DNA of 64,000 bases from assembly GCF_026625125.1 (NCBI RefSeq), contig NZ_CP113097.1:1984001-2048000 (forward strand), read 5' to 3'. How positions within the stretch are numbered: the stretch's first letter is position 1; each line of letters starts with the position of its first letter. Below, one piece after another: positions 1 through 15,683 of the stretch. The notes under the pieces are model-generated. The model worked only from the letters and a program-made list of their open reading frames with translations, was not told the origin of the DNA and did no database searches. Made by a program: the position numbers and the translations under genes. This DNA is from Pseudomonas putida (GTDB lineage: Bacteria; Pseudomonadota; Gammaproteobacteria; Pseudomonadales; Pseudomonadaceae).

Positions 1-449
1 AGTGGGAAGTTCCATGGTGTCAGAGCTGCTACAACGCCTGCACCTACGCGCTGAACCCGGCCATTACCGATAGTCTCTTCCCAGCTGATCTGATCAATGC
101 CTTCAATCGCCAGCTCAATGCCTTTGGTCGCCATGCCAAGCTGCATGCTTTGCCCCAGGAATTTCGGGCAACCTATCTCTAGGGCCAGAGCTTCTGCAAT
201 GTCTTCATTGCGAGCCGAGAGCGCAGTCGATAGCTCGGAGAGCGCTGTTTTTCGCTCGGAAAGAGAACTCTTGCTCCAGGTACGGTGACCCTGCTTCGCG
301 CTCGAAATAGCATCATCGACGTCTGCCAGCGAGGCGAAGGTAACTCGACCCACCACACGACCGAGGACGGGGGAGACCACGTCATAGCCAGTGTTGCCGG
401 AGCAGCGCGAAGCGCTGCCCTGGCTGAAGAACTTGTTGTATTCGATCAT
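1..449 (-). CDS. NAD(P)-dependent aldehyde dehydrogenase, N-terminal part (cut by window edge)
   Basis: Reading leftwards from the ATG at 449, about 149 codons are open to the window edge. The translation shows the aldehyde dehydrogenase N-terminal cofactor domain: hydrophobic segments, a run ending in GRVQRVGAGVV and the family hallmark TPWNFP just before the cut. The catalytic Glu and Cys lie outside the window. The start overlaps the stop of the upstream decarboxylase gene by four bases (ATGA), so the two are co-translated. The likely role is oxidation of the aldehyde released by that decarboxylase to the acid; that substrate link is inference. Family confidence is high, substrate unknown. 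Confidence 0.85.
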   Translation of the reverse strand, partial: MIEYNKFFSQGSASRCSGNTGYDVVSPVLGRVVGRVTFASLADVDDAISSAKQGHRTWSKSSLSERKTALSELSTALSARNEDIAEALALEIGCPKFLGQSMQLGMATKGIELAIEGIDQISWEETIGNGRVQRVGAGVVAALTPWNFP

Positions 450-2296: not shown

Positions 2297-2755
2297 CTAC
2301 CCTGGTTGGCGTCTAATTTTTTCCAGGTCTTTCAAAAGCTCTAGCAGCAATTCGGCTTTCTTGCGGCCATATCGCTCGAACAAATCGTCATAAATCGCTT
2401 GAGTCGCATCCGCCGCGCGTTGGGCTACTTTGCGCCCCTCAGCCGTCAATGAAACGGTATAAGCGCGCATATCAACCTGAGATTTTTGCTTCTCCATCCA
2501 GCCCAGGTCGCTTAGAGCCGAAACAATACGCGCCATGCTGACTTTGTGAATGCAGCTCAATCGGCACAAGTCAGCGAATGGAATCTCCTCATACTCAAAC
2601 GAAATGCGCATTACTCGCCATTGTTGCTCGGTGACGTTCAGCTCCTGCAGAATTGGCGAGAAGTTTGAAACCACCGCGTCTCTGGCGCGCAGACACGCAA
2701 GAGCTAAAGAGTGCTCGGCGTATCGAAAGTCCAGATTCTGATCTGTGGGTGACAT
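2297..2755 (-). CDS. MarR-family regulator (HpaR-like paralogue 1)
   Basis: 152 aa. The central winged helix (TEQQWRVMRI, SMARIVSALSDLGWMEK, then the wing around VDMRAYTVSLTAEG) is typical MarR. The N-terminal dimerisation helix (LALACLRARDAV) and the placing of motifs match the two other MarR proteins here (8475 and 15261), so the three are paralogues, this one the most diverged. It sits between the decarboxylase pair and the dioxygenase operon, 101 bases after the reductase gene, and probably has its own promoter. It most likely represses one or both neighbouring operons in response to an aromatic ligand; ligand and targets are inference. Confidence 0.9.
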   Translation of the reverse strand: MSPTDQNLDFRYAEHSLALACLRARDAVVSNFSPILQELNVTEQQWRVMRISFEYEEIPFADLCRLSCIHKVSMARIVSALSDLGWMEKQKSQVDMRAYTVSLTAEGRKVAQRAADATQAIYDDLFERYGRKKAELLLELLKDLEKIRRQPG

Positions 2756-2856: not shown

Positions 2857-4068
2857 TTATGAAAAGATTGTTTTCAAATCTTGGCTGTTGTCAGGCAGAT
2901 GCCCTTTTTTCGCCACGGCAGTGCCCACGAATTTTTTGGCCAGCATGAACGCGCGTGGATCACTGATCGAATCGACGGCTTGTAGTACTTCGCCTTTGAA
3001 GTACCAGAAGCTTGCGCTTGAGCCATCCGGAGTGATCCGGGAGATCACGTGGTCGTGATCAAAGCTCAGGCCTGCGATTTGCATTTTGTAGCTATATTGG
3101 TCAGACCAGAACCAAGGTTTCGGAGCGTAGCTGCCAGCGAGGCCCAAGATGTCCCGGGCGGTTGTGTCGGCCTGCTCTAGAGCATTCTGCACCGATTCCA
3201 GTCGAATGGTTCTGCCGTTGAAATCAAAGCTAGTGCAGTCACCGATCGCATAGATGGAGTCGACGGAGGTGCGGCACTGCGCATCGACCTTGATGGCATC
3301 CAGCTTCAGCTCAACACCTGCTGCGCTAGCGAGTTCGGCGTTTGGAATGATGCCGATGCCAACTACCAAGACGTCTGCCGGCAGCTCTTCTCCAGATTGG
3401 AGTAGAACGCTGGATACGGCACCGTCCTGGACGTCATATCGCGCAACCTCAGCACCTTCGAAAATCCGCACACCACGCTTGCAGTGGAAGTGACGAACAA
3501 AATTGGAGGTTTCCTGGCAGGCCACGCGCTGAAGAATTCGTTCTGCTCGCTCAATTACCGCCACCTCGACATCGGATGCGCGTGCGACAGCAGCGATTTC
3601 CAGCCCGATGTAGCCACCGCCGATGATCACCATGCGCTTTCCTGGCTGCAGGTAGCTGTTCAGCGCATCCGCATCCTTCAAGTCACGGAATGTATAGACG
3701 TTCTTCAGGCCTTCGCTTGGCAGCCCCGGCAAGGGGCGTGCACGCGAACCCGTTGCGAAGACAAGCTTGTCGTAGGGGAACGCCTGGCCAGCCTGAGTGA
3801 TGACCTCTTTGCGCTGAGTATCGACACTCTCGACCTTGAGATTGAGATGGACGTCGATTTTTTCCTCATCGTAGCTGTGCGCCGGTCGGATGAAGAGGTC
3901 ATCGATCGGTGCGAGCCCATTAAGGTATTTCTTCGACAGAGGTGGCCTCTGATAGGGGTGAACCGCCTCCTCACCAATTATGGCAACCTCACCTTGAAAG
4001 CCATGCTCTCTAAGGCGGAATGCGCAAGTTGCTCCGGCTTGGCCTGCTCCGACAATCACAACTTTCAT
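2857..4068 (-). CDS. FAD-dependent ferredoxin reductase of the ring-hydroxylating dioxygenase
   Basis: 403 aa, the usual length of putidaredoxin/rubredoxin-reductase-type flavoproteins. The FAD Rossmann motif VGAGQAGA is at residues 6-13, the NAD(P)H motif GGGYIGLE near residue 150, and the second FAD motif YAIGDC near residue 275. The C-terminal domain is complete (WFWSDQY). It passes electrons from NADH to the [2Fe-2S] ferredoxin encoded at 7982 and so to the Rieske oxygenase. It is the last gene of the dioxygenase operon, starting 3 bp after the preceding stop. A short AT-rich inverted repeat (AAGATT/AATCTT) overlaps its 3' end. Confidence 0.93.
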   Translation of the reverse strand: MKVVIVGAGQAGATCAFRLREHGFQGEVAIIGEEAVHPYQRPPLSKKYLNGLAPIDDLFIRPAHSYDEEKIDVHLNLKVESVDTQRKEVITQAGQAFPYDKLVFATGSRARPLPGLPSEGLKNVYTFRDLKDADALNSYLQPGKRMVIIGGGYIGLEIAAVARASDVEVAVIERAERILQRVACQETSNFVRHFHCKRGVRIFEGAEVARYDVQDGAVSSVLLQSGEELPADVLVVGIGIIPNAELASAAGVELKLDAIKVDAQCRTSVDSIYAIGDCTSFDFNGRTIRLESVQNALEQADTTARDILGLAGSYAPKPWFWSDQYSYKMQIAGLSFDHDHVISRITPDGSSASFWYFKGEVLQAVDSISDPRAFMLAKKFVGTAVAKKGHLPDNSQDLKTIFS

Positions 4069-4071
4069 TTC

Positions 4072-4482
4072 TTATACTCCGGGCAGCAAGTAGCTATCGT
4101 CAAATTCACCAAACATCACTTTGGCGCGAATCTCTCCAACGTATCCAATTTCCAAGAAGCTTGAGCCCGACTTGTTGCCGGAGTCGAGAGATTCTGCGAT
4201 TTCTTCAGCAAACATCCCCGCAGCTTCTCGGTCGATTTCCCATTCCAGGCGAGATTCTGGGGTTCGATGGAGGATCAAGCCCCGTGTCCGGTGGTCATCC
4301 ACCAGTTTGATGGTGATATCGTGAGTTGCCGATGCGACAAAGGCGAGCTCCTTGATATCTACATCGCGTGGATTGATCGACAGTGCATAGAAGAATTCTT
4401 GAAGCTGTGAAACGTCGCTGCGCTCCCCTACAATTAGCAGCAATGGGTGAAAGTCGCTCGGCATATAGTGAAAGCGCAGCAT
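4072..4482 (-). CDS. Unknown 136-aa protein in the dioxygenase operon
   Basis: I do not recognise a family. The reading frame is open further upstream, but the Met at 4482 is chosen because it lies 4 bp after the stop of the preceding small gene and opens a compact soluble protein (MLRFHYMPSDFHPLLL). There are no membrane segments, signal peptide or cysteine motif; it is acidic, with alternating beta-like stretches and a C-terminal KVMFGEFDD patch. The tight spacing on both sides places it firmly in the operon, suggesting an accessory role in oxygenase assembly, substrate delivery or side-product handling; that is inference. Confidence 0.75.
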   Translation of the reverse strand: MLRFHYMPSDFHPLLLIVGERSDVSQLQEFFYALSINPRDVDIKELAFVASATHDITIKLVDDHRTRGLILHRTPESRLEWEIDREAAGMFAEEIAESLDSGNKSGSSFLEIGYVGEIRAKVMFGEFDDSYLLPGV

Positions 4483-4486
4483 GGCT

Positions 4487-4669
4487 TTAGATCTCTTCTT
4501 GGGTTGCGTGTTCGACGATGTCCTGGCTATGAATAAGCTCGCGGCCACTGGAGTCTTCAACTTCAACCCACTGCCCATCGCCCATGTTTTCAACGCAGAC
4601 GACGTGGCGTCCGCCTTTGATGACAAGTTTGTCGCCTGGTTTGATTTCGTAGAGATTGATCATAGTCAT
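4487..4669 (-). CDS. Unknown 60-aa protein in the dioxygenase operon
   Basis: Starts inside the stop of the beta-subunit gene (TAATG, 1-bp overlap) and ends 4 bp before the next gene. The sequence (KPGDKLVIKGGRHVVCVENM) alternates short hydrophobic strands with Gly/Asp turns, like a small SH3/KOW-type beta barrel; this is a visual judgement. It has a single Cys. The function is unknown. Conservation of the overlap argues that it is a real translated gene. A second in-frame Met at 4663 could be the true start. Confidence 0.7.
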   Translation of the reverse strand: MTMINLYEIKPGDKLVIKGGRHVVCVENMGDGQWVEVEDSSGRELIHSQDIVEHATQEEI

Positions 4670-5217
4670 TAGAAGAATGCAGTCAGGTTTTTAACGAGTA
4701 GGACGTTTTGATCGAGGATGATTTCTCGCTCAAGTACACGCCAGCCATGTGCGGTCTCAACCAGGGTGTCGTAGCGCTTGCCAACCATGGTGTTGACCTC
4801 GTACTCAACGCGGTTGAGGTAGACCATGAAGCGGCAGCTGGTTTTCACCGTGCGCAGGCCGTTCTCATCCTTGTTTTGCTCCAGGACGCGTACGTTGGTG
4901 ATCAGATGCGAGATCCGCGACAGCGGCTCCTCCGCATAGTGAACGCCCGTCAGGATTTGCTCGACGCGTTTGGTGAGTGTCCATTTGCCTTCGTCGAACC
5001 AGCTGATATCCGAGCCCAGCTTGGTGTTCTCTTTTTCTGCGTGCTGGCCGAACTTGACGTTGCGGCGCATGGGCATGAAGTACTTGATGTCTTCATGCAG
5101 CAGCTCAAGCCACTCGTTGTAGCGGCGCTCGTCCATGAGATCGGCTTCGTAGTAGAAGAAGCTCGCGATCTCTGGCGTGATGTCCAGATGCTCGGTCAGG
5201 AATTCTTTGGTGCTCAT
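4669..5217 (-). CDS. Ring-hydroxylating dioxygenase, beta (small) subunit
   Basis: 182 aa, the standard length for the cone-fold (NTF2-like) beta subunits of alpha3beta3 Rieske dioxygenases. Recognisable blocks are EADLMDERRYNEWLELL, the central YFMPMRR, and RISHLITNVRV, followed by SCRFMVYLNR and the C-terminal EREIILDQNVLLVKNL. It resembles the biphenyl/3-phenylpropionate dioxygenase class (BphE/HcaF). The beta subunit has no metal centre and stabilises the trimer. The gene overlaps the SDR gene by 4 bp (ATGA), so translation is coupled. The SDR gene lies between alpha and beta, an uncommon order. Confidence 0.93.
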   Translation of the reverse strand: MSTKEFLTEHLDITPEIASFFYYEADLMDERRYNEWLELLHEDIKYFMPMRRNVKFGQHAEKENTKLGSDISWFDEGKWTLTKRVEQILTGVHYAEEPLSRISHLITNVRVLEQNKDENGLRTVKTSCRFMVYLNRVEYEVNTMVGKRYDTLVETAHGWRVLEREIILDQNVLLVKNLTAFF

Positions 5218-6011
5218 GAGTGTTTACCCAATGGAATAGAGGAGCCTTGGTGAGCGAAACAGCCCACATCGATGATGGTGCCGCTGATTGCTTGGGCATC
5301 ATCCGAAATGAGGAAGCGGATGGCTGCCATCATGTCCTCGCCATTAATCGCGCGGCCTGCCACTGACCCCACGAAATTGGTCGGGAATGCAGCACCAGCC
5401 TCTTCGAGTCGGCCTCGGGTCATGCCGGCATCAATTCCGCCGCCACCAGGTATGACCATGTTCACGCGGATCTTTTGCGAGAAGTGATCAAGAGCCAGGG
5501 CGGCGTTCAGGGCAACGAGGCCACCCTTACTGGCGGCGTACGCCGCCATATTGGGTTTCCCCCAACCTGCACCGGATCCCACGTTGACGATGCTTCCGCC
5601 ACCTTGGCTTTCCATGTGGGGGATGGCTGCTCGAGCCATCAGGTACGGGCCGCGCAGGTTGACTGCGAGGATCTTGTCCCAAAGCTCTGGCGCCGTATTC
5701 AATACCGTACCCAGTGGGCCAATTGCGGCGTTGTTCACCACGGCATCGATACGCCCATAGGCTTCGAGAGTCGTGTTAATGACACGATCTACATCGGCCT
5801 CAAGCGTAACGTCGGCCTCCAGCGCGATGAGCGAAAGCTCTTCGGCCCTGGCGTCCTGATTCATTGCGTCGATGGTATTGGTCGCAATGCTGCCTGCCTG
5901 TTTTTGGCCAATGCCAAAGGCCACTACCTGGTAGCCCGACCTGGCAAGGCCCATGGCGACGCCATGGCCCAGGCCGAAAGTGCCACCAGAAACGATGACT
6001 ACTTTGCTCAT
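5214..6011 (-). CDS. Short-chain dehydrogenase, probable cis-dihydrodiol dehydrogenase
   Basis: 265 aa classical SDR. The cofactor loop SGGTFGLGHG is near residue 8, NNAA near residue 91, the catalytic Ser in VGSGAG, and YAASK holds the catalytic Tyr and Lys. Its place inside a Rieske dioxygenase operon, between alpha and beta and one base after alpha, strongly suggests that it oxidises the cis-dihydrodiol to a catechol with NAD+. If the product is 3,4-dihydroxyphenylacetate, it links directly to HpaD. The exact substrate is inference. Confidence 0.9.
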   Translation of the reverse strand: MSKVVIVSGGTFGLGHGVAMGLARSGYQVVAFGIGQKQAGSIATNTIDAMNQDARAEELSLIALEADVTLEADVDRVINTTLEAYGRIDAVVNNAAIGPLGTVLNTAPELWDKILAVNLRGPYLMARAAIPHMESQGGGSIVNVGSGAGWGKPNMAAYAASKGGLVALNAALALDHFSQKIRVNMVIPGGGGIDAGMTRGRLEEAGAAFPTNFVGSVAGRAINGEDMMAAIRFLISDDAQAISGTIIDVGCFAHQGSSIPLGKHS

Positions 6012-6012
6012 T

Positions 6013-7380
6013 TCACTCGCTCCGGTTCTGGAAACGTGGGTCGTGCTCGCCGCTGAGTACGCTCCAGTCCTTCTCGAAGATGTAATCCTGCCAACGGAGG
6101 TAGAAGCCGCGCGCCATGTGCTCGGTGACTGAGGTGCTCACGTCGCCTTTGATGCGCAGGCCGTTCACGATTGGGTCGGTCGTGTTTTTGTTCAGCGACT
6201 GCTGATAGTTGAATGGGTAGCGCTTGGAAATGGTGCCGCCGCAAGCTTTCGTGGCGTACAGCCAGTTCTCCATGTCGTCCTGTTCGGTCATGCCAGCAGG
6301 GCCCGAATAGCGCATGTAGTAGTGGCGCAGGAAGTCCTTAACCTTCTCGGGCGCATCAGCGTCTACCAGGAAGAAGCGCCATCCTTCAGTTTCATTTGGG
6401 CTGTGTGGGTGCCACACGCAGAGGCTGCGCGGCTGGGTGCCATGGAACGAGGTGTTCGGGAAGATCGTGCCTACGAATGGACGCAGACGGTAAGCGTCAC
6501 CTTTGGCAGCTTTGCGCTTATTGAAGTTGTCGCGGAAGTACTGCTCGATTTCCGGGTCATTTTTGAACTGCTCGACATACTCCTGGCCTTCAGGTTGAAC
6601 GGCTGAGTGCACGCCATGGCCGTGCGGGAAGCTGACCCACACGTGTTTGGAGAATTCCAGCTCGTTGTCACGGCGACCTTTCACGCCCTGCTCAGCCGAA
6701 GGGCCGATGCCGATCAGGTCAACCGACCGGTGGCTTGGGTTGTGGTAGGTATCGCCGAGGAAGTTCTCAGCAGCGTATTTCCAGTTGGCAGGGAAGATCC
6801 ATTTGTGGACGCCAACCACTTCCGATCCACCTGGACGACCGTCACGATGATCCAGGGCGAGATCCAAGTGAGTGACCGCATCGCCCAGGTAGTCCATGAA
6901 CTCAGGTGCTTCCGGATCCCACGTGGCCCACACGGTGCCCTTGTAGATTGCCAGTTTGGCGACCTCAATCAGCGACCAGTCGGCTTTATCGAAGCAGTCA
7001 CCGTAGATGTCCTTGGCCATTGGCACGCCACGGAGTTGGCCATCGGTCGAGAATGTCCAGCTGTGATAAGGGCAGGTAAACAGCGAGGTGTTCCCGGACT
7101 CGTAGCGGCACACCTTCATGCCGCGATGGCGGCAGGAGTTCAGGAACACGTGGACTTTCGAGGCCTTGTCACGAACCAGGAGAACCGACTCTTCACCCAT
7201 GCGGGAAGAGAAGAAGTCACCCGGGTTCGGGATTTGACTTTCGTGACCAACGAACAGCCAGGCGCGAGCAAAAACCGTTTCCAGCTCTTTTTTGTAGATA
7301 TCTGCATCAGAGAAAATCTTACGATCGATAACGCCGTTTTCGACGTCAACAAATTTTCCTGTTGAAGCGATGATGTTCAT
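6013..7380 (-). CDS. Ring-hydroxylating dioxygenase, alpha subunit (Rieske oxygenase)
   Basis: 455 aa, typical for alpha subunits. The N-terminal Rieske domain has CRHRG near residue 83 and CPYHSW near residue 103, giving the Cys-X-His...Cys-X2-His ligands. The catalytic domain has the mononuclear iron motif ENFLGDTYHNPSH near residue 205, with the third carboxylate probably in QDDMENW near residue 365. It is the first gene of the leftward operon and catalyses NADH-dependent addition of both O2 atoms to an aromatic ring. Because the following metabolic block is the homoprotocatechuate pathway, the likely substrate is an arylacetate attacked at ring positions 3 and 4 (inference). A weak ribosome site (AGG) precedes the start. 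Confidence 0.95.
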   Translation of the reverse strand: MNIIASTGKFVDVENGVIDRKIFSDADIYKKELETVFARAWLFVGHESQIPNPGDFFSSRMGEESVLLVRDKASKVHVFLNSCRHRGMKVCRYESGNTSLFTCPYHSWTFSTDGQLRGVPMAKDIYGDCFDKADWSLIEVAKLAIYKGTVWATWDPEAPEFMDYLGDAVTHLDLALDHRDGRPGGSEVVGVHKWIFPANWKYAAENFLGDTYHNPSHRSVDLIGIGPSAEQGVKGRRDNELEFSKHVWVSFPHGHGVHSAVQPEGQEYVEQFKNDPEIEQYFRDNFNKRKAAKGDAYRLRPFVGTIFPNTSFHGTQPRSLCVWHPHSPNETEGWRFFLVDADAPEKVKDFLRHYYMRYSGPAGMTEQDDMENWLYATKACGGTISKRYPFNYQQSLNKNTTDPIVNGLRIKGDVSTSVTEHMARGFYLRWQDYIFEKDWSVLSGEHDPRFQNRSE

Positions 7381-7737
7381 TTGTCATGCCTATCGTGGAT
7401 GAAATATTTAGGCTTTGCTCGACCGGTTGCTGATGTGTCAGGCAGCCACGCAACGACCTCACCCTCAGCGCAATGCTGGGTGTTCGGAACGTCGATCAAT
7501 CAAAAGCACGGGGCTCAGCTTGATAGCCTTTCAGCGCGGAGGGCTCCGGCTGAGGAAAGGCAGTGGCGCCGGCTGGTTTGGGCGCCAGCGGTTCGGGGAA
7601 TGTCAGACAAGCGCAACGGTTCATGGCAGTCCTTCCTGATTTTGAGGCCAGGTTCTTGTTTTTTTGGTTCTGCTCGCCGCCTCATTCGCTTGAGCAAGTA
7701 CGGCTTGATTTCGAGGCTATTCCTGCAAAGGCCAAAA

Positions 7738-7751
7738 GTCAACATGTTAAC
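7738..7751. promoter_or_regulatory. Operator palindrome, copy 1
   Basis: GTCAACATGTTAAC, one base off the perfect palindrome GTTAACATGTTAAC found at 7950. It overlaps the putative leftward -35 box (TTGACT) of the dioxygenase operon, the position expected for a MarR/HpaR repressor site. Confidence 0.6.
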
Positions 7752-7949
7752 TAAATTGCCGTTTCGTTTCTGATGCCTTTGGGTCTATTTTAGCCGCTTG
7801 CAAAGTGGCTGCGAGGTGCGTATCCATTGACTTTGCTGCGTTTTTTGCATCGCATAATCAAGTGATTTCGAGGCCAGAGAAGGATCGGAAAGAGGTGACA
7901 AATGGAGGGTAAAGGGGCTTGCCAGAACCTTGTGAATAGCGTTTACTTG

Positions 7950-7963
7950 GTTAACATGTTAAC
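7950..7963. promoter_or_regulatory. Operator palindrome, copy 2 (perfect)
   Basis: GTTAACATGTTAAC, a perfect 14-bp palindrome ending 18 bases before the ferredoxin start. Copies with 1-3 changes occur at 7738, 15047 and 15067. It probably overlaps the -10 region of the ferredoxin/marR transcript. Confidence 0.7.
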
Positions 7964-7981
7964 TGTGCAGAGGCGCTAAAA

Positions 7982-8302
7982 ATGACAAAAATTACGTTCA
8001 TCCAGCCTGATGGGATTGAAAAGCAAGTGGATGCCGCCGATGGCCACTCGCTGATGGATGCAGCAGTCCGAAACGGTGTGAAGGGCATGGAAGCCGAGTG
8101 CGGTGGTGCATGCTCGTGTGCAACCTGTCACTGCTATATCGAGGAGCCGTGGTTCGACACGGTCGGGCCTGCAGAGGGTGACGAAGAGGGCATGTTGGAG
8201 TTCGCCTTTGAGGCGAAGGAAAACTCCAGGCTCGGTTGCCAGGTGAAGGTAAGTCCGAGTTTGGACGGCTTGGTCGTGCGACTGCCGTCTAGCCAAGGCT
8301 GA
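7982..8302 (+). CDS. [2Fe-2S] ferredoxin (adrenodoxin/putidaredoxin type) for the dioxygenase
   Basis: 106 aa. The cluster ligands are CGGACSCATC (C-X5-C-X2-C) near residues 40-50 and the distal Cys in RLGCQV near residue 87, the adrenodoxin-type pattern rather than a Rieske ferredoxin. It shuttles electrons from the reductase at 2857 to the Rieske oxygenase. The gene is divergent from the oxygenase operon but shares its operator-bearing control region, which explains co-regulation. AGAGG lies 8 bases before the ATG. A MarR-type gene follows about 170 bp later. Confidence 0.93.
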   Translation: MTKITFIQPDGIEKQVDAADGHSLMDAAVRNGVKGMEAECGGACSCATCHCYIEEPWFDTVGPAEGDEEGMLEFAFEAKENSRLGCQVKVSPSLDGLVVRLPSSQG

Positions 8303-8474
8303 GTCCTCGTAAGCTTTGTTATCGACTCAATGCTACTCAACGGGCCTGATCAAATAGCATAGATCCCTTGCCGAGGATTCGGGCCCATTGATGTTTCGAG
8401 TTCCATCCCATGCGCTCTCTATTCCGATATCTGCTCCTCGCACAAGGCGCTGGCATGCTTCTCTGTGGATTCAA

Positions 8475-8915
8475 ATGTCTAACTCAACCTATCGAGTCTC
8501 CCTCACGCTCGCATTGCTCCAGGCTCGGGCTTCGGCAATGAGCTTCTTCCGGCCCGTACTCAACAAGTATGGCGTTACCAGTCAGCAGTGGCGGGTGATC
8601 CGTGTCCTTCATCAGAACGGCCAAACAGAGATGTACCGACTGGCAGAGCTGGTTTGTATTCTCCAGCCGAGTTTGACTGGGATTCTTAAGCGAATGGAGT
8701 CTCAAGGGTTGGTGAGCCGGCAGCGTTCAGAGGTCGATCAGCGATGCGTCTTGGTTAGCCTATCGAGCCATGGGCAAGCGCTTTACGGGCTGGTTGAGCA
8801 AGACATCAACCAGTGTTATGACCGGCTGGAGATGGGATTGGGTAGGGACAGTCTGCGAGATCTCTTGGACTTGTTGGACGAGCTCAAGAGGGTCAGCCCC
8901 GTCAACCAGGTTTGA
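8475..8915 (+). CDS. MarR-family regulator (HpaR-like paralogue 2)
   Basis: 146 aa from the Met at 8475; the frame is open upstream to 8388, but the alignment with the HpaR-like protein at 15261 begins at this Met. SLTLALLQARASAM, TSQQWRVIRVL, CILQPSLTGILKRMESQGLV and the wing DQRCVLVSLS follow the MarR fold. By eye about half the residues match the 15261 protein. It lies just after the ferredoxin gene and its operator palindrome and is the best candidate repressor of the dioxygenase/ferredoxin promoters. Confidence 0.9.
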   Translation: MSNSTYRVSLTLALLQARASAMSFFRPVLNKYGVTSQQWRVIRVLHQNGQTEMYRLAELVCILQPSLTGILKRMESQGLVSRQRSEVDQRCVLVSLSSHGQALYGLVEQDINQCYDRLEMGLGRDSLRDLLDLLDELKRVSPVNQV

Positions 8916-8952
8916 GGGGGCTGCGTAATTAGCACTTGGTGCAGAGAGTGGG

Positions 8953-9747
8953 TTAGTACACGCCCCCGCCATTCTGAAGTGGAAGCTGAGTATCTTTGAA
9001 GCGTGCTGCGAGAGTTTGTAGCCCGCGCATCAAGACAGTTGTGTCCACACCTACAGCCACGAACGTGGCGCCAAGCTCGAGATAGCGACGAGCAAGCTTC
9101 TCATCCGCGCTGAGAATGCCTGCGGCTTTCCCTGCCTTACAGATTCGAACGATCGCATCTTCGATTGCAGCCTGAACCTCTGGGTGGCCAGGGTTGCCTC
9201 GATACCCCATTGCTGCAGACAAGTCGGCAGGGCCGATGAAAACACCATCTACGCCCTCGACCGCAGCGATCGCATCCAGATTATCGAGACCCTCACGGTT
9301 CTCGATCTGCACCAGAAGGCAGATCTCTTGGTCCGCCTGGTTCAGGTAGTCAGGTAGGGTGTTCCAGCGAGAGGCGCGGGCAAGGGCGCTGCCAACCCCC
9401 CGGATTCCAGATGGCGGATAGGTGACGGAGCGCACCAGGTGCTGTGCTTGTTCGGCTGTCTCGACCATTGGAACCAGCAATGTTTGAGCCCCGATATCCA
9501 AGACCTGCTTGATCAGTGCTGTGTCGCCAACGACCGGACGAATTACGGGTTGTGAGGGGTAGGGGGCTACCGACTGCAGCTGGCTAAGCAGTGAGCGGAT
9601 GTCGTTTGGCGCGTGTTCTCCATCCAGCAGGAGCCAGTCGAAACCTGCATTGGCAGCCAGTTCCGCGCAATAGGCATCTGCAAGTCCGAGCCACAGACCA
9701 ATTTGTGGCTCGCCGGATTTCAGGCGTGCTTTGAATGAGTTTTTCAT
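8953..9747 (-). CDS. hpaI: 4-hydroxy-2-oxoheptanedioate aldolase
   Basis: 264 aa from the Met at 9747 ([12 protein letters not shown]), which aligns with the E. coli HpaI start and has CAGGAG upstream. Class II metal-dependent aldolase of the HpcH/HpaI family: [14 protein letters not shown], the metal-site Glu in VQIENREG and [14 protein letters not shown] are all present. It cleaves 4-hydroxy-2-oxoheptane-1,7-dioate to pyruvate and succinic semialdehyde, the last step of the homoprotocatechuate route. It is the final gene of the hpa operon, 18 bp after hpaH, and faces the MarR gene at 8475 across a 37-bp convergent gap with no obvious terminator. Confidence 0.96.
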
Positions 9748-9765
9748 TGCTAGGAGCTCCTGCAA

Positions 9766-10569
9766 TTAAACGAAGCGGCAGGCAATGCTGCCCAGCATGT
9801 CGTAGTCCACGTGGAAAGTGTCGCCTGGGCGTGCCGCGACAGGTCGAGTGAACGAGCCGCCTAGAATGATTTGACCTGGTTCAAGCGTAACGTCGTATGG
9901 GGCCAGCTTGTTGGCGAGCCAAGCCACACCCTTCGCGGGATGGTTCAAAACTGCTGCGCTAACACCGGATTCTTCAATTACCCCATTTCGGTAAAGGACT
10001 GCTGGAACCTTGCGCAGGTCGATGTCGGTCGGACGGACGGGGCGACCGCCCATAACCACGCCGGCGTTTGCTGCGTTGTCGGAGATAGTGTCAAAGACCT
10101 TGCGAGTAGCCTGCGTCTGCGGGTCTACCTGTTGGATCCGTGCGTCGATGATCTCCAGTGCTGGAATCACCCATTCGGTGGCCTCAAGAACATCGAACAC
10201 AGTGCAGTTCGGCCCTTTGAGAGGCTTGCCCAGAATGAAAGCGAGCTCGACTTCTACGCGAGGTACGATGAAGCGCTCGAAGGGAATGTCGGTGCCTTCG
10301 TCGAAGAGCATATCATCGAGCAGCGCGCCGTAATCAGGCTCGGTAATGTTAGAGGAAACTTGCATGGCTCGAGACGTCAGGCCGATCTTGTGTCCTACCA
10401 GCTTGCGGCCAGCTGCAATCTTCTTGGCAACCCAAGCTCGTTGGATGGCGTACGCGTCTTCGATGCTGATCGCAGGTTGGTCAAGAGAGAACTGGCGCAC
10501 CTGTTCACGAGTGCGTTCGGCCTGGTCGAGTCGCTCAGCGGCCTGCTGGATGAAGGTGTTATCAAGCAT
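9766..10569 (-). CDS. hpaH: 2-oxo-hept-4-ene-1,7-dioate hydratase
   Basis: 267 aa, identical in length to E. coli HpaH, and of the fumarylacetoacetase/hydratase fold (MhpD-like). Metal-binding acidic residues are visible in [12 protein letters not shown] (residues near 105-116). [10 protein letters not shown] and the C-terminal [17 protein letters not shown] are family hallmarks. It hydrates 2-oxohept-4-ene-1,7-dioate to the substrate of HpaI. It lies between hpaF and hpaI in the same transcript, about 39 bp after hpaF. Confidence 0.96.
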
Positions 10570-10608
10570 GATTTGTCTCTTTAGAAGGTGAGCAGCGCGC
10601 GGCAGGTG

Positions 10609-11019
10609 TCAGGCCGGGCGATTGAATAGGGGGTGTAAGGTGCTGTGCTTGGCGTCGAACACTTGCTGGGTGCTCTCGTCGATTTGCAAAGTGATGCCGA
10701 TCGGGCGCTCTTGCAGCAGCTCGTCTAGGCGGCTTTTCAGCACCTGCAGCAAGCTGTCCCCGACGCTGTTGTGCACCGACTTGCTGCGGCCACTTCCCAT
10801 GCGCAGGTTGGCATATAGGAAGCCGAAGTTACCGCTGCCGTCAGCCACCGCGCAGTGGGCTGCGGGGTAGGCCAGCACGCGGGTGCCACCGACGGGGAAC
10901 ACGGTCTTGCCAGTATCGTCACGCTGTTCGAGCATGCAGTCTGCCAGGGCGCGGCACAGGCCAGGAATGTCGGCATCGCGTTCCAGATCGGGGGTGTAGA
11001 GCAGTACCAGGTGGGGCAT
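10609..11019 (-). CDS. hpaF: 5-carboxymethyl-2-hydroxymuconate delta-isomerase
   Basis: 136 aa. Begins MPHLVLLY, so Met removal exposes the N-terminal Pro that acts as catalytic base in this tautomerase-superfamily enzyme. The conserved central block NLRMGSGRS and length fit the CHMI family. It isomerises 5-carboxymethyl-2-hydroxymuconate to the 2-oxo form decarboxylated by HpaG. GAGGATC precedes the start. Confidence 0.93.
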   Translation of the reverse strand: MPHLVLLYTPDLERDADIPGLCRALADCMLEQRDDTGKTVFPVGGTRVLAYPAAHCAVADGSGNFGFLYANLRMGSGRSKSVHNSVGDSLLQVLKSRLDELLQERPIGITLQIDESTQQVFDAKHSTLHPLFNRPA

Positions 11020-11081
11020 GACGTAGATCCTCGTCAGGGCGGCAACCTGCCGTCCTTATGGAGGGCAGGCGCGGGGGCGGT

Positions 11082-12005
11082 TCACAAGCGGCTGGTTGAT
11101 ACCACTGCGCCCGGATTGGCAGCCTGTGCTGATGGAATGGCCGAGCCATCCTGCGGAGTGACCGGGAAGATCGCATTGATCTGACCGGTGCCCGAAGAGC
11201 CGAAGTAGGGAGTCACTATCTCGGCGTGGCCGTCATATTTCGACCAGCCAAGGGCGCCAAGCAGCATTGCCGTGTCGTGCATGAAGCCTTCGCCGTGGCC
11301 CTTGGCCGCGTACTCTGGCAGCATCCCGCAGAACTCATCCCATTCAGCGTTCTCCCACATCTGCACCACGCGATGGTCGAGGGTTTCCAGGAATGGACTC
11401 CATACCTTCGTTGCAAAGTCCGGGGCCTGGCCGTTTTGAGCAAAACGGTGCGAAAGCGATCCGCTGGCTAGGAAGGCAACGGTACCATCGTAGTGATCTT
11501 CCACCGCCTTGCGCATGGCCCAGCCGAGGCGGGCGCTGTCGGCCAGATAGTGGAAGGTGCAGAGTGCTGAGACCGAGATCACCTTGAAGTGTTGGTCTTG
11601 GTTCATGTAGCGCATCGGCACCAAGGTGCCGTACTCGGGGCCCAGGGTGGTCGCATGGTGGGCCATGGTCTCGACACCGAAGCGATTGCATTCCTCGGCC
11701 AGGAGCTTGCCGAGCTCGGTGTTGCCGGGGAACTCGTATTCCATGTTGCTGATGAAATGCGGCAGCTCATTGCTGGTATAGAGGCCCTTGAAATGCGGCC
11801 CGCACAGCACATGGTAGTTAGCATTGACCAGCCAATGGGTGTCGAATACCACGATGGTGTCTACACCCAGCTCACGGCAGCGGCGACTGATCTCATAGTG
11901 CCCATCGATCGCGGCTTGGCGGAAGCCATGGCGCGGCCCAGGCAACTCGGACAGGTACATGGAGGGGACATGAGTGATCTTGGCTGCGAGTGCCAGCTTG
12001 CCCAT
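11082..12005 (-). CDS. hpaD: 3,4-dihydroxyphenylacetate 2,3-dioxygenase (class III extradiol)
   Basis: 307 aa LigB-fold extradiol dioxygenase. The N-terminal HVPSMYLSELPG and HGFRQAA, DTIVVFDTHW, the MAHHATTLGPEYGTLVP block with metal/catalytic His residues, and the C-terminal GHGEGFMHDTAMLLGALGW match homoprotocatechuate 2,3-dioxygenases of the Fe(II) type. It opens the ring of 3,4-dihydroxyphenylacetate, producing 5-carboxymethyl-2-hydroxymuconate semialdehyde for HpaE. Its presence fixes homoprotocatechuate as the point where the upper pathway must enter. AGAAGGAG precedes the ATG. Confidence 0.96.
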   Translation of the reverse strand: MGKLALAAKITHVPSMYLSELPGPRHGFRQAAIDGHYEISRRCRELGVDTIVVFDTHWLVNANYHVLCGPHFKGLYTSNELPHFISNMEYEFPGNTELGKLLAEECNRFGVETMAHHATTLGPEYGTLVPMRYMNQDQHFKVISVSALCTFHYLADSARLGWAMRKAVEDHYDGTVAFLASGSLSHRFAQNGQAPDFATKVWSPFLETLDHRVVQMWENAEWDEFCGMLPEYAAKGHGEGFMHDTAMLLGALGWSKYDGHAEIVTPYFGSSGTGQINAIFPVTPQDGSAIPSAQAANPGAVVSTSRL

Positions 12006-12093
12006 GATGAATCTCCTTCTTGTTGTAAGGCCACCGAGCCGGCACGTTGGCGATCCGTCAGAACTGCCTCAATTCCCGGCTCAGTGGAAAGAG

Positions 12094-13563
12094 TCACACC
12101 CCCCAGCGCGGGATGTGGTGGCTGCCCATCGAGATGCAAACGTTCTTGATCTCGGCGAACACTTCGAAGCTGTACTGTCCACCCTCGCGGCCAGTGCCGG
12201 ACCCCTTCACGCCACCGAATGGCTGACGCAGGTCGCGCACGTTATGGCTGTTGATGAACACCATGCCAGCCTCGATGCCGCGTGCCAGGCGGTGGGCCTT
12301 GCCGATGTCCTGCGTCCAGATGTACGAGGCCAGGCCGTATTCGGTGTCGTTGGCCAGTTGCAGCGCCTCGGCTTCGTCCTTGAACGGGATCAGGCAGACC
12401 ACCGGGCCAAAGATTTCTTCCTGGGCAATGCGCATCTTGTTGTTCACGTCGGCGAACACGGTGGGCTGGATGAACTGCCCCTTGGCCAGGTGCGCCGGTA
12501 GGCCCGCCGGGCGCTCCAGGCCACCGGCAACTAGACGTGCGCCCTCCTCGATGCCGATGCGGATGTAGCCGGTGACCTTGTCGTAGTGCTGCTGGGTGAT
12601 CATCGAGCCGACCTGGGTCTTCGGATCGGTCGGGTCGCCGACGATCAGGCGCTTGGCGCGCGCTGCGAACTCGGCGACGAACTGCGGGTACACGCTCTCC
12701 TGGATGAAGATCCGGCTGCCGGCGGTGCAGCGTTCGCCGTTGAGCGAGAAGATGGTGAACAAGGCTGCGTCCAGCGCGCGCTCCAGATCGGCATCTTCGA
12801 AGATCAGCACCGGCGACTTGCCGCCCAGCTCCATCGAGTATTTCTTCAAGCCAGCGGTCTGCATGATCTTGCGACCCGTGGCGGTGCCGCCGGTGAAGGA
12901 AATGGCGCGTACGTCCGGGTGGCGGACCAGGGCGTCACCGGCGGTGGCGCCGTAGCCCTGGATCACGTTCAGCACGCCGTTGGGAATGCCGGCCTCGACC
13001 GCCAGGCGGCCGAGTTCGTTGGCGGTCAGCGGCGACAGCTCGCTCATCTTCAGCACCGCGGTGTTGCCCAAGGCCAGGCATGGCGCGGTCTTCCAGGTGG
13101 CGGTCATGAACGGCACGTTCCACGGGCTCACCAGACCACACACACCCACGGGCTGGTACAGGGTGTAGTTGAGCATCTGGTCATCGACCGGGTAGGTGTG
13201 GCCGTCCATGCGCGTGCAGACTTCGGCGAAGAAATCGAAGTTGTGCGAGGCACGGGGGATCAGCACGTTTTTGGTCTGGTGGATCGGCAGGCCGGTGTCC
13301 AGGGTCTCGAGTTCGGCCAGCTTCGGCACGTTCTGGTCGATCAACTCACCCAGCTTGCGCATCAGTCGGGCACGTTCCTTGGCTGGGGTGTTGGCCCACT
13401 TGGGGAAGGCTTCCTTGGCCGCGGCGACAGCCTGGGCGACTTCCTCGGCACCGCCGCTGGCGACTTCGCAGATGGCGTCGCCGGTGGCCGGGTTGTAGTT
13501 GACGAAGGTGTCTTTGCTTTCGACCTCACGGCCGTTGATCCAGTGCTTGATCATGCTGCTCAT
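12094..13563 (-). CDS. hpaE: 5-carboxymethyl-2-hydroxymuconate semialdehyde dehydrogenase
   Basis: 489 aa aldehyde dehydrogenase. VSPWNVPFM forms the cofactor-domain hallmark, SFTGGTATG the NAD loop, MELGGKSP the general-base Glu and GERCTAGSR the catalytic Cys. The C-terminal RQPFGGVKGSGTGREGG is typical of HpaE. It oxidises the ring-cleavage semialdehyde to 5-carboxymethyl-2-hydroxymuconate. The start overlaps the hpaG2 stop by 4 bp (ATGA). Base composition appears more GC-rich than hpaI, hpaH and hpaG1. Confidence 0.95.
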   Translation of the reverse strand: MSSMIKHWINGREVESKDTFVNYNPATGDAICEVASGGAEEVAQAVAAAKEAFPKWANTPAKERARLMRKLGELIDQNVPKLAELETLDTGLPIHQTKNVLIPRASHNFDFFAEVCTRMDGHTYPVDDQMLNYTLYQPVGVCGLVSPWNVPFMTATWKTAPCLALGNTAVLKMSELSPLTANELGRLAVEAGIPNGVLNVIQGYGATAGDALVRHPDVRAISFTGGTATGRKIMQTAGLKKYSMELGGKSPVLIFEDADLERALDAALFTIFSLNGERCTAGSRIFIQESVYPQFVAEFAARAKRLIVGDPTDPKTQVGSMITQQHYDKVTGYIRIGIEEGARLVAGGLERPAGLPAHLAKGQFIQPTVFADVNNKMRIAQEEIFGPVVCLIPFKDEAEALQLANDTEYGLASYIWTQDIGKAHRLARGIEAGMVFINSHNVRDLRQPFGGVKGSGTGREGGQYSFEVFAEIKNVCISMGSHHIPRWGV

Positions 13564-14327
13564 GCCTTGTTGTTCTTGAAGAAATCAGCTTCGCTGACGA
13601 TTCGGTTGGCCAGCCGGCCCACGCCTTCCACTTCCACCACCACTTCATCGCCTGGTACCACGTCGGCCAGGCCTTCCGGGGTGCCGGTGGCGATCATGTC
13701 GCCGGGTTGCAGGGTCATGAAGCTGGAGAAGTATTCGATCAGGTACGGAATGTCGAAGATCATGTCCGCGGTGGTGCCTTCCTGCTTCAGCTCGCCGTTG
13801 ATCCAGGTGCGCAGCTTGAGGTTGCTGACGTCCGGCACGTCGGCGGCATCGACGATCCACGGCCCGACCGGGGTGGTGGCGTCGCGGTTCTTCACCCGCA
13901 GGTTGGGGCGGTAGTAATTCTCGAGGTAGTCGCGAATGGCGTAGTCGTTGCACACGGTGTAGCCGGCGACGTAGTCGAGGGCGTTTTCGCGCTTGACGTT
14001 TTTTGCCGGCTTGCCGATGACCGCGACCAGCTCGCACTCGTAGTGCATGTACTCGACGTTGTCCGGGCGCCAGGTGACCTGGTCGTGGCCGGTGTAGGTG
14101 CCTGGCGACTTGATGAAGGCCAGCGGCTCAGTGGGCGGGGTGAAGGCCAGTTCGCGGGCGTGGTCGGCGTAGTTCAGGCCCAGGGCGAACATGCTGCCGG
14201 TGGCGGGTGGCAGCCACTCGACCTGATGCTCGGCCAGCAGCCGGCCATCGGCCAGGCGCAAGGTGTTATCGGCCTCGACGGTGACACTGTGGACATTGCC
14301 TTCATAACGGATGCGTGCGTGCTTCAT
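13560..14327 (-). CDS. hpaG2: HpaG C-terminal-type subunit: CHM isomerase / OPET decarboxylase
   Basis: 255 aa of the fumarylacetoacetate hydrolase fold. MFALGLNYADHA, the metal ligands in MHYECELVAVIG and the closing FMTLQPGDMIATGTPEGLADV are clear. In E. coli HpaG the two homologous halves are one polypeptide; here they are separate genes overlapping by 4 bp (14324-14327). With hpaG1 it catalyses decarboxylation of 5-oxopent-3-ene-1,2,5-tricarboxylate and the accompanying isomerisation. Confidence 0.94.
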   Translation of the reverse strand: MKHARIRYEGNVHSVTVEADNTLRLADGRLLAEHQVEWLPPATGSMFALGLNYADHARELAFTPPTEPLAFIKSPGTYTGHDQVTWRPDNVEYMHYECELVAVIGKPAKNVKRENALDYVAGYTVCNDYAIRDYLENYYRPNLRVKNRDATTPVGPWIVDAADVPDVSNLKLRTWINGELKQEGTTADMIFDIPYLIEYFSSFMTLQPGDMIATGTPEGLADVVPGDEVVVEVEGVGRLANRIVSEADFFKNNKA

Positions 14328-14995
14328 GCCTGGTCCTCCGACTCGGCGACGATGGTGTTCGCCAGGCGGCCAAGGCCTGTGATTTCAACCTCCACGAAAT
14401 CTCCTGGCTGAACATCCACGCGACCTTCTGGGGTCCCGGTGATCAACACGTCGCCCTCGTCGAGGGTCATAAACTCGCTCAGCTCGGCAATCAGGCGCGC
14501 AACGGAGCGCACCTGATTAGCGGTGGTATTTTCCTGAACAACCTTGCCGTTTACGTAGAGCTTGATGGTGAGGTCTTGGGGCGTAGCAATTTCATTGGCA
14601 GGGATGATTTGTTCGCCGACAGCGCAGAAGCCGTCGCGGCACTTGGCCTTCACCGCTGGTCGGTAATAACTGTCTTCTGGGAGGCTGAATTCATTAACGA
14701 TGGCGTAGCCGGCAACGTGACTCAGAGCGTCGGCTTCTTTCACTCGGCTTGCGCGCTTACCAATGACAACCCCGAGAGCTGGACCAGGCTGAAGGCGTTC
14801 TCCGGTGGGGCGAACAACCACACCCTTATGCTCGTTGCGAGTGTTAGGTGTCTTGATGAACAAGACCGGCTTCAGGGGGGGCTGCTTGTACGGCGGCTTG
14901 TGGAAGTCAGCTAGGTGTTGATCAAGCAGACCTTTGTAGTTCAGCGCGATCCCGAAGAGGGTTCCGTTCGCTCTAGCGTGCGGAATAGGGGGCAT
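14324..14995 (-). CDS. hpaG1: HpaG N-terminal-type subunit: CHM isomerase / OPET decarboxylase
   Basis: 223 aa from the ATG at 14995 (MPPIPHARANG), preceded by CAGGAGACAG. The same fold as hpaG2: FGIALNYKG, PALGVVIGKRA and FMTLDEGDVLITGTPEG. The usual E-X-E metal motif of the active half appears here as PALGVVIG, so the acidic ligands look missing and this half is probably the non-catalytic or specificity partner, as in fused HpaG proteins (inference). First gene of the seven-gene hpa operon. It looks less GC-rich than hpaG2. Confidence 0.92.
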   Translation of the reverse strand: MPPIPHARANGTLFGIALNYKGLLDQHLADFHKPPYKQPPLKPVLFIKTPNTRNEHKGVVVRPTGERLQPGPALGVVIGKRASRVKEADALSHVAGYAIVNEFSLPEDSYYRPAVKAKCRDGFCAVGEQIIPANEIATPQDLTIKLYVNGKVVQENTTANQVRSVARLIAELSEFMTLDEGDVLITGTPEGRVDVQPGDFVEVEITGLGRLANTIVAESEDQA

Positions 14996-15046
14996 CAACT
15001 GTCTCCTGGTGGGTCTGATCGCATCATGAGGGTGGCGACCAGATTG

Positions 15047-15060
15047 GTAAACATGTTTCC
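15047..15060. promoter_or_regulatory. Operator palindrome, copy 3
   Basis: GTAAACATGTTTCC, 11 of 14 matches to the perfect operator at 7950. It lies around the expected transcription start of the hpaG1 promoter. Confidence 0.5.
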
Positions 15061-15089
15061 TTTATAGTTAAGATGTTAACAATGGTCAA
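15061..15089 (-). promoter_or_regulatory. Sigma-70 promoter of the hpa operon with internal operator (copy 4)
   Basis: On the minus strand TTGACC (15084-15089) and TATAAA (15061-15066) are separated by exactly 17 bp. The spacer is almost filled by GTTAACATCTTAAC (15067-15080 on the plus strand reads GTTAAGATGTTAAC), 13 of 14 matches to the palindrome at 7950. A repressor bound here would block RNA polymerase directly. A second, weaker copy lies just downstream at 15047. Confidence 0.7.
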
Positions 15090-15260: not shown

Positions 15261-15683
15261 ATGTCTAGCCCAAGACCTTCGCTGACCTTATCTCTTCTTC
15301 AGGGGAGGGAAGCGGCTATGGCCTTTTTCCGTCCGTCACTGAATGCCCGAGACCTCACGGAGCAGCAGTGGCGGGTCATCCGCATTCTTCGGCAGCAAGG
15401 AGAACTGGAAAGTCATCAATTGGCGAAGGCAACCTGCATTCTCAAACCAAGTATGTCAGGAGTACTTACCCGCTTAGAGCGAGATGGCCTGGTTCGCCGC
15501 TGGCGTTCACCCGAAGACCAACGACGTGTATTGGTAGGATTGACGGAGCAGGGACAGCAACGTTTCGTCGAAATGTCTGGCGATATGGAGAGTAACTATC
15601 GTCGCCTGGTTGAACAGTTCGGGGAGGAAAAACTCGGCCAGCTTCTCAAACTACTGGATGAACTCAAAACCGTAGCTCCCTGA
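15261..15683 (+). CDS. hpaR: MarR-family repressor of the homoprotocatechuate operon
   Basis: 140 aa, matching HpaR in length and in SLTLSLLQGREAAM, TEQQWRVIRILRQQG, CILKPSMSGVLTRLERDGLV and the wing DQRRVLVGLTEQG. It is divergent from hpaG1 across 265 bp containing the operator palindromes, the classic hpaR-hpaG arrangement. HpaR of E. coli represses the pathway until a hydroxyphenylacetate-type inducer binds; the inducer here may differ because the upper pathway differs. Confidence 0.92.
   Translation: MSSPRPSLTLSLLQGREAAMAFFRPSLNARDLTEQQWRVIRILRQQGELESHQLAKATCILKPSMSGVLTRLERDGLVRRWRSPEDQRRVLVGLTEQGQQRFVEMSGDMESNYRRLVEQFGEEKLGQLLKLLDELKTVAP

Follow-up and report, generated by a model that had tools for sequence, protein, structure and literature searches.

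A Rieske oxygenase cassette beside a homoprotocatechuate gene set in Pseudomonas putida suggests a possible coenzyme A-independent route for aerobic phenylacetate use

Homoprotocatechuate is generally taken as a mark of 4-hydroxyphenylacetate or tyramine use, and the textbook route for aerobic phenylacetate use runs via phenylacetyl-coenzyme A (CoA) and an epoxide. Here we ask what feeds the homoprotocatechuate (hpa) genes in a 64 kb stretch of a Pseudomonas putida genome (positions 1,984,001-2,048,000 of a single contig of 5,861,051 bases; "the window" below), where a complete Rieske oxygenase system and a short-chain dehydrogenase/reductase (SDR) adjoin a complete hpaG1G2EDFHI set. An initial annotation had pointed out this arrangement, and open reading frames (ORFs), Pfam and NCBIfam bear it out, every named gene being an open frame. 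The annotation also proposed that the Rieske system and dehydrogenase replace HpaBC as the source of homoprotocatechuate, acting on an unhalogenated arylacetate through a cis-3,4-dihydrodiol. The replacement of HpaBC is favoured by a recurrent linkage to hpa genes that involves two unrelated kinds of HpaD, by HpaR-type operators at both promoters and by a genome without an HpaB match; the substrate can be named only tentatively.

Supply of homoprotocatechuate by the Rieske cassette is well supported, and a link between the Rieske and hpa genes is likely. A dihydrodiol route from an arylacetate to homoprotocatechuate is somewhat likely from the gene families present, and phenylacetate is our best single guess for the substrate, albeit one that could well be wrong. 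The boldest reading, with a probability of about 0.42, is a CoA-independent aerobic phenylacetate pathway in which a new Rieske clade carries out cis-3,4-dihydroxylation and the SDR re-aromatises the product; it would have been put together on more than one occasion, with two unrelated enzymes for ring cleavage, and in this cluster would be co-regulated and fed from phenyllactate or phenylpyruvate. In the explanation we prefer, electrons would pass from the flavin adenine dinucleotide (FAD) reductase and the Fer2 ferredoxin to the alpha/beta Rieske oxygenase. This would add O2 to an arylacetate, phenylacetate being the likeliest, at its positions 3 and 4. From the resulting cis-3,4-dihydrodiol the SDR would make 3,4-dihydroxyphenylacetate (homoprotocatechuate), the ring of which would be opened by HpaD, with HpaE, HpaG1/G2, HpaF, HpaH and HpaI finishing the known meta-cleavage route. 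A dehydrogenase is required in this scheme because going from phenylacetate to homoprotocatechuate amounts to attack at carbons 3 and 4 plus the loss of two hydrogens; from 4-hydroxyphenylacetate, monooxygenation would suffice. A carrier, a flavin mononucleotide (FMN) hydroxyacid dehydrogenase, a thiamine diphosphate (ThDP) enzyme and an aldehyde dehydrogenase (ALDH) would take aryl-lactate or arylpyruvate to the arylacetate, and an HpaR-type repressor acting on TTAA-N4-TTAA sites would switch the Rieske and hpa operons on together.

The usual entry enzymes were sought across the whole genome. The initial annotation's remark that the window holds no HpaBC can be extended for HpaB, since PF03241 gave 0 matches in all 5.86 Mb in a search that was positive in 4/14 control genomes; HpaC was not separately searched. 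PF05138, covering PaaA and PaaC, likewise gave 0 matches genome-wide and was positive in 4/14 control genomes, as a CoA-independent phenylacetate route would predict. An acyl-CoA-dehydrogenase-like type of 4-hydroxyphenylacetate hydroxylase also exists, and PF08028 matched 14 proteins of the genome. The eight examined included two SfnB proteins and one without any match, and in their scan at E 1e-60 no model named for 4-hydroxyphenylacetate hydroxylase was matched, the presence of such a model in the library being unchecked.

The linkage between cassette and hpa genes recurs elsewhere. We scanned one genome per species for relatives of the alpha subunit, which returned 305 stretches, and kept the best 80 as loci (62-87% identity), searching up to 10 kb of fetched flank around alpha with window proteins as queries. 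Genes of the hpa set lie near alpha in 14/80 loci, spread over Gamma-, Beta- and Alphaproteobacteria and Actinomycetota. Eleven of these have window-like hpa genes (L036, L038, L041, L042, L047, L048, L053, L059, L061, L076 and L079), ten being betaproteobacterial and L053 a metagenome-assembled genome (MAG) named only as Proteobacteria. A LigB-type HpaD is visible in L038, L042, L047, L061 and L076, hpaG and hpaE in L041, L048 and L053, and hpaG only, before the locus ends, in L059 and L079. The nearest relative, L006 from Acinetobacter ANC 3813 (alpha 87% identical), carries a complete hpaG2G1EDFHI set at 134.9-140.7 kb and the cassette at 149.2-153.7 kb, on the same strand of one contig and with the hpa set about 15 kb from alpha. 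In L022 from Aquabacter and L016 from Nocardia, the HpaD is of the unrelated vicinal-oxygen-chelate (VOC) type (TIGR02295, 425 and 433 bits, cut-off 321) and is accompanied by an HpaE over cut-off, and in Aquabacter HpaH, HpaI and HpaR are over cut-off too; the nearest PDB chains of the Aquabacter VOC protein are homoprotocatechuate 2,3-dioxygenases. By our own estimate, the chance of one random hpa set falling within a 40-kb span of a 5-Mb genome is below 1%. Both unrelated HpaD types are encoded side by side in one further stretch (L103, contig C115 of genome G422, 95512-97294), from the genome that also holds L012.

Co-occurrence at the level of whole genomes says less. Of 48 alpha-bearing genomes, taken from the first 50 of the 80 loci, 40 encode at least one type of HpaD over cut-off (20 and 24 for the two types, 4 shared); the VOC type passes its cut-off in 3 of 14 control genomes. 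Within one family, LigB-type HpaD is found in 3/4 genomes with an alpha of 67-68% identity against a background of 106/399; we set this co-occurrence aside as evidence, a binomial estimate of about 0.06 not being significant alone.

The two gene sets also share a candidate regulatory site. According to PMC7180172, the footprinted HpaR sites of Yersinia have the form TTAA-XXXX-TTAA and resemble those of E. coli W. In the window, the palindrome GTTAACATGTTAAC first surfaced by intergenic comparison. Allowing up to three mismatches, its pattern has four window matches (GTCAACATGTTAAC, GTTAACATGTTAAC, GTAAACATGTTTCC and GTTAAGATGTTAAC), all in the alpha/ferredoxin and hpaG2/hpaR intergenic regions, against a shuffle mean of 0.54 and with 0/100 shuffles reaching four, the pattern having been chosen from these same regions. 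Exact TTAA-N4-TTAA occurs only twice in the 64 kb, once in each promoter region (shuffle mean 0.11; 0/100 shuffles reach two); with one mismatch there are 11 window matches versus 3.7 expected, several of them elsewhere. Both the HpaR regulator and the TTAA-N4-TTAA operator sequence of an hpa pathway are present, hpaR being divergent from hpaG2, and predicted repressor binding at the two exact sites suggests that the Rieske and hpa operons are co-regulated in this cluster, but not across the family. Further observations speak against a general rule. Upstream of the HpaX-like gene the operator matches are not clearly over chance. In Acinetobacter L006 two exact sites precede hpaG2, in a stretch of AT-rich DNA that contains further exact sites, and no exact operator lies near alpha. 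In the 18 other loci examined exact operators occur only in L042 (two) and L076 (one), and no exact operator lies next to alpha.

The oxygenase itself appears to be a Rieske dioxygenase of the biphenyl lineage, with Rieske and catalytic domains, a beta subunit and electron carriers. Its best PDB match is biphenyl dioxygenase (312.9 bits) and its best NCBIfam model HcaE, although at 347.6 bits against an equivalog cut-off of 830 it falls outside HcaE proper; identity is 36% to HcaE, 37-39% to BphA, 32% to NdoB and 25% to XylX. We built a quick maximum-likelihood tree of 93 rows, comprising ten references and 83 family rows (the window alpha, 81 from the 80 loci, one of which has two, and that of Variovorax VAI-C, L087). 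The 83 family alphas form one branch apart from the ten references (Shimodaira-Hasegawa-like approximate likelihood ratio test 99), the deeper branching order being unsure owing to long reference branches. A tight grouping of alpha with an oxygenase of unrelated substrate, which the initial annotation had named as the sign to look for against its proposal, was not seen among these references. The columns of the 2-His-1-Asp iron site are conserved in 83/83 clade alphas, as are a His and an Arg at the columns of naphthalene-dioxygenase positions 307 and 311, which we take to line the substrate pocket. Between the two iron-binding histidines, at position 210 of naphthalene dioxygenase, all 83 are also gapped in the alignment; near there the window alpha reads HNPSH, one residue fewer than naphthalene dioxygenase. 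Database proteins related to alpha number 2850 at E up to 1e-60, part of them outside the clade, and the named proteins among 120 listed relatives bear general names. The label "phthalate 3,4-dioxygenase", at first suggested by operon context for the closest alphas outside the clade (47-48% identity; Arthrobacter FB24 and M. rufum plasmids), was dropped because, in a comparison that covered the FB24 protein only, the PDB enzyme of that name ranks under HcaE and BphA.

Side-chain chemistry is suggested by the genes flanking the cassette. Here and in related loci, genes for ThDP enzymes, ALDHs, GlcD-like FAD dehydrogenases and an FMN dehydrogenase suggest a conversion of 2-hydroxyacid to 2-oxoacid, aldehyde and acid. 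Given a homoprotocatechuate product, the simplest chain would be phenyllactate, phenylpyruvate, phenylacetaldehyde and phenylacetate, the aryl group not being fixed by these families. The ThDP enzyme has acetolactate synthases as its nearest solved relatives, which do not indicate its substrate; relatives of at least 47% identity occur in 10/80 loci, with an adjoining ALDH in L008, L009, L029, L036 and L076. The window ALDH matches ALDH family models, none over cut-off, and shares 61% identity with the ALDH encoded next to the L036 ThDP gene. Leftward from the window edge (stretch L086, the DNA left of the ThDP gene) the ALDH gene continues, and next come genes for an FMN L-hydroxyacid dehydrogenase, a class II aldolase and a carrier that is HpaX-like (395.6 bits, under the cut-off of 615). 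The models and structures nearest to the FMN enzyme are those of L-lactate dehydrogenase, hydroxyacid oxidases and mandelate dehydrogenase. GlcD-like FAD dehydrogenases occur in seven loci, the one tested scoring 268.6 bits against a GlcD cut-off of 567.9. We also considered a mandelate reading, in which hydroxyacid dehydrogenase, ThDP enzyme and ALDH would lead to benzoate, but did not retain it, since the hpa genes would not be fed by benzoate.

Homoprotocatechuate could, of course, be reached in other ways. The rival we take most seriously, which is nonetheless unlikely, holds that the Rieske enzyme is a monooxygenase that turns 4-hydroxyphenylacetate (or 3-hydroxyphenylacetate) into homoprotocatechuate in place of HpaBC, with the SDR acting on the side chain or on another substrate. 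The product, the hpa linkage and the absence of an HpaB match would be the same, the upstream carrier is HpaX-like if below cut-off, and salicylate 5-hydroxylase, a Rieske hydroxylase of a phenolic acid, is among the PDB matches of alpha at 126.5 bits; biphenyl, phenylpropionate and benzene dioxygenases, however, score far above it at 313-293 bits. An SDR of at least 45% identity occurs in 61/80 loci and sits between alpha and beta in 58/80, and all 14 hpa-linked loci keep one of 54-59% identity, between alpha and beta in 12 and beside the hpa genes instead in L042 and L061. This order favours, without proving, a dihydrodiol and fits that chemistry better than a hydroxylation. Somewhat less probable still is an arylacetate bearing a further group, such as a carboxylated, homophthalate-like compound decarboxylated by the SDR or by the class II aldolase. 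That aldolase (L086 16328-17089, PRK07044 over cut-off) lies in the island, and its family is found near the cassette in 12/80 loci (for example L047 20361-21086) and in L087, which is also annotated with a tripartite tricarboxylate transporter binding protein; an acid group could be bound by the invariant His and Arg (positions 307 and 311), if their presumed pocket role holds. Most loci show no such aldolase, however, and homophthalate and a dioxygenase rarely appear together in the open-licence literature. With only 24% identity to the aldolase encoded next to the Arthrobacter FB24 alpha, the present one gives no support to a PhtC-like role.

Least probable of the three, by a little, is that the gene sets are mere neighbours on an island, the Rieske enzyme serving another pathway, such as one for arylpropionates, and an unrecognised hydroxylase making homoprotocatechuate. 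There is indeed another Rieske oxygenase nearby, accompanied by mhpB- and mhpC/D/F/E-like genes that lie about 13-17 kb left of the Rieske enzyme of the cassette, HcaE is the best model of alpha even if far below cut-off, and the 14 PF08028 matches could include another hydroxylase type. Chance proximity fits poorly with a linkage seen repeatedly across four bacterial groups, in combination with two unrelated kinds of HpaD, and with an exact HpaR-type operator in both promoter regions, and the eight PF08028 proteins examined match no model so named within the limit given above.

Several observations nevertheless weigh against a phenylacetate dihydrodiol pathway, and some of them would suit mere neighbourhood. 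No hpa set was seen in the fetched flank of 67/80 loci, some flanks ending at contig ends; L006, the only one of these followed beyond its flank, proved to have one. In 19/80 loci, many of them Acetobacteraceae, there is no SDR of 45% identity, and with so many loci lacking one or the other the alpha clade may hold several functions; no member with a substrate is known to us. The SDR has no close kinship to BphB, HcaB, NahB or XylL (30% to XylL and 26% to HcaB; 22-27% to BphB, NahB and HcaB). PF03241 is absent from 8/14 hpa-linked genomes, several of them MAGs and possibly incomplete, while 6/14 do carry it. A RebC-like FAD hydroxylase family occurs near alpha-SDR-beta in 23/80 loci, including L006 (6528-8201), whose protein, the sole member tested, matches PRK06126 at 661 bits. 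Such an enzyme could be a second homoprotocatechuate supplier in those relatives; a search of this genome, run without a positive control, did not find the PRK06126 type. The G+C content of hpaE-hpaG is host-like, unlike most of the island, so that the hpa genes may have a different history from the Rieske unit. Genome-level co-occurrence is weak by itself, adjacency carrying the argument, and the loci examined for operators give the regulatory link no wider backing. In one Acetobacteraceae MAG (L083), two alpha-family genes stand in tandem (9667 and 11174) with no SDR nearby, and this branch may differ in function from the other alphas.

Set against known systems, the phenylacetate dihydrodiol pathway would be a new combination of known enzyme kinds on an oxygenase clade with no characterised member known to us. 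The HpaBC-fed hpa meta-cleavage pathway is described for E. coli W, P. putida U and Yersinia in PMC7180172. The present cluster shares with it hpaG1G2EDFHI, HpaR-type regulators and TTAA-N4-TTAA sites, and departs from it in a genome without an HpaB match and in the Rieske system and SDR beside the hpa genes. It resembles E. coli HcaEFCD with HcaB in having an alpha/beta Rieske oxygenase, a ferredoxin, an FAD reductase and an SDR dehydrogenase, but differs in its distant alpha, its Fer2-family ferredoxin, the adjoining hpa genes and two extra small proteins. Biphenyl 2,3-dioxygenase BphA, for all that it is the best PDB match, is represented by two annotated bph-cluster alphas that fall outside the 83-member clade. 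The 4-chlorophenylacetate 3,4-dioxygenase of Pseudomonas sp. CBS3 is reportedly a Rieske enzyme that yields homoprotocatechuate, and is said to dehalogenate its substrate and to need no dehydrogenase. With the paa (phenylacetyl-CoA epoxidase) pathway the cluster would share aerobic phenylacetate use, if phenylacetate is the substrate, although the genome has no PaaA/PaaC match. We found no description of a Rieske route to homoprotocatechuate in the open-licence literature searched. If such a route is true, hpa genes without hpaB would indicate that unhydroxylated aryl acids are used, the oxygenase clade, a widespread one with 83 tree sequences, would gain a first function to test, and the enzyme would give access to cis-3,4-dihydrodiols of arylacetates.

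Features are collected in Table 1. Read from high to low coordinate, the minus strand carries hpaG2, hpaG1, hpaE, hpaD, hpaF, hpaH and hpaI; a gap with two plus-strand genes, for an HpaR-family MarR regulator and the Fer2 ferredoxin, precedes alpha, the SDR, beta, two small genes of 58 and 136 aa and the FAD reductase, and these are followed by an HpaR-like MarR gene, the ThDP gene and the start of the ALDH gene. HpaD, HpaE, HpaG1, HpaG2, HpaH and HpaI are over curated cut-offs (HpaG-N 284/229 and HpaG-C 411/276 bits for score and cut-off), which together with HpaF assigns the set to the hpa meta-cleavage pathway; HpaF is placed by PF02962 (CHMI, 110 bits, cut-off 26.5), its NCBIfam model reaching only 50.9 bits (cut-off 215). 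The ferredoxin is of the Fer2 family, not Rieske-type, its best NCBIfam model being ISC-type fdx, below cut-off, and the YAASK of the SDR translation supplies the YxxxK motif of its family.

Table 1. Features of the window discussed in the text (positions are those of the window; paired bit values are score/cut-off)
Feature	Position	Strand	Basis
ALDH, 5' part; putative arylacetaldehyde dehydrogenase	1..380	-	continues left, L086 18532-19881
ThDP-dependent enzyme; putative arylpyruvate (2-oxoacid) decarboxylase	446..2119	-	PRK08266 677.6 bits, cut-off 571
MarR regulator, HpaR-like	2297..2755	-	110.9 bits, below cut-off 121.2
FAD ferredoxin reductase	2857..4068	-	Pfam cut-off passed; 36% identical to E. 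coli HcaD
X136 (our name), conserved 136-aa protein	4072..4482	-	between beta and reductase
KOW60 (our name), conserved 58-aa protein	4487..4663	-	between beta and reductase
Rieske oxygenase beta subunit	4669..5217	-	PF00866 108.6 bits, Pfam cut-off passed; PRK10069 subfamily 189 bits, cut-off 145
SDR dehydrogenase, YAASK motif; putative cis-dihydrodiol dehydrogenase	5214..6011	-	PF13561/PF00106, Pfam cut-off passed
Rieske alpha subunit; putative arylacetate 3,4-dioxygenase	6013..7380	-	Pfam cut-off passed
Operator-like site GTCAACATGTTAAC	7738..7751		1 mismatch to perfect palindrome
Predicted HpaR-type operator GTTAACATGTTAAC	7950..7963		exact TTAA-N4-TTAA, divergent alpha/ferredoxin promoter region
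Fer2-family [2Fe-2S] ferredoxin; putative electron carrier to alpha	7982..8302	+	Pfam cut-off passed
HpaR-family MarR regulator	8388..8915	+	156.8 bits, cut-off 121.2
hpaI aldolase	8953..9765	-	TIGR02311 over cut-off, 433/369 bits
hpaH hydratase	9766..10569	-	TIGR02312 over cut-off, 466/352 bits
hpaF 5-carboxymethyl-2-hydroxymuconate isomerase	10609..11019	-	PF02962
hpaD homoprotocatechuate 2,3-dioxygenase, LigB type	11082..12005	-	TIGR02298 (HpaD_Fe), 456/316 bits
hpaE semialdehyde dehydrogenase	12094..13563	-	TIGR02299 over cut-off, 735/638 bits
hpaG1 decarboxylase/isomerase subunit	13560..14327	-	TIGR02303-type
hpaG2 decarboxylase/isomerase subunit	14324..14998	-	TIGR02305-type
Weak operator-like match GTAAACATGTTTCC	15047..15060		3 mismatches
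Predicted HpaR-type operator GTTAAGATGTTAAC	15067..15080		exact TTAA-N4-TTAA, divergent hpaG2/hpaR promoter region
hpaR regulator	15261..15683	+	TIGR02337, 176.8 bits, cut-off 121.2

Horizontal acquisition is the best reading for the Rieske unit. A search of the genus at E 1e-100 found the alpha gene in 1/398 genomes, namely the source genome, and not in the one same-species genome searched; other named Pseudomonas do encode close SDR relatives (strain WHRI 8519, 95%; P. fulva, 81%). In 2-kb bins, the G+C content stays at 0.48-0.57 between about 18 kb outside the left edge of the window and about 10 kb within it, rises to 0.61-0.64 across hpaE-hpaG, returns to 0.54-0.60 as far as about 24 kb and from there on is mostly 0.58-0.66. 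A tyrosine-recombinase-like ORF, recognised by reading its translation only (L086 852-1757), lies near a fall in G+C from 0.62 to about 0.49 and is a possible left edge of the island. The second catabolic unit, about 7-16 kb left of the window (L086 3742-12810), encodes a BenA-like Rieske alpha with a beta subunit, a reductase, a Zn-alcohol dehydrogenase and mhpB- and mhpC/D/F/E-like genes (mhpC/D/F/E, reductase and Zn-alcohol dehydrogenase by reading translations); it is possibly an arylpropionate route beside the arylacetate route.

The two small proteins between beta and reductase are conserved beside beta in many loci. X136 has tblastn matches in 38/80 loci and no Pfam or NCBIfam match at E 0.001; its model has a mean predicted local distance difference test score (pLDDT) of 88 and no PDB match at E 0.001, the best being weak (E 7.5e-3, template modelling score 0.42). 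A KOW60-family ORF is called in 40/80 related loci and in L087, and the protein is modelled as five strands with a mean pLDDT of 89; at 58 aa, its gene is easily overlooked by annotation.

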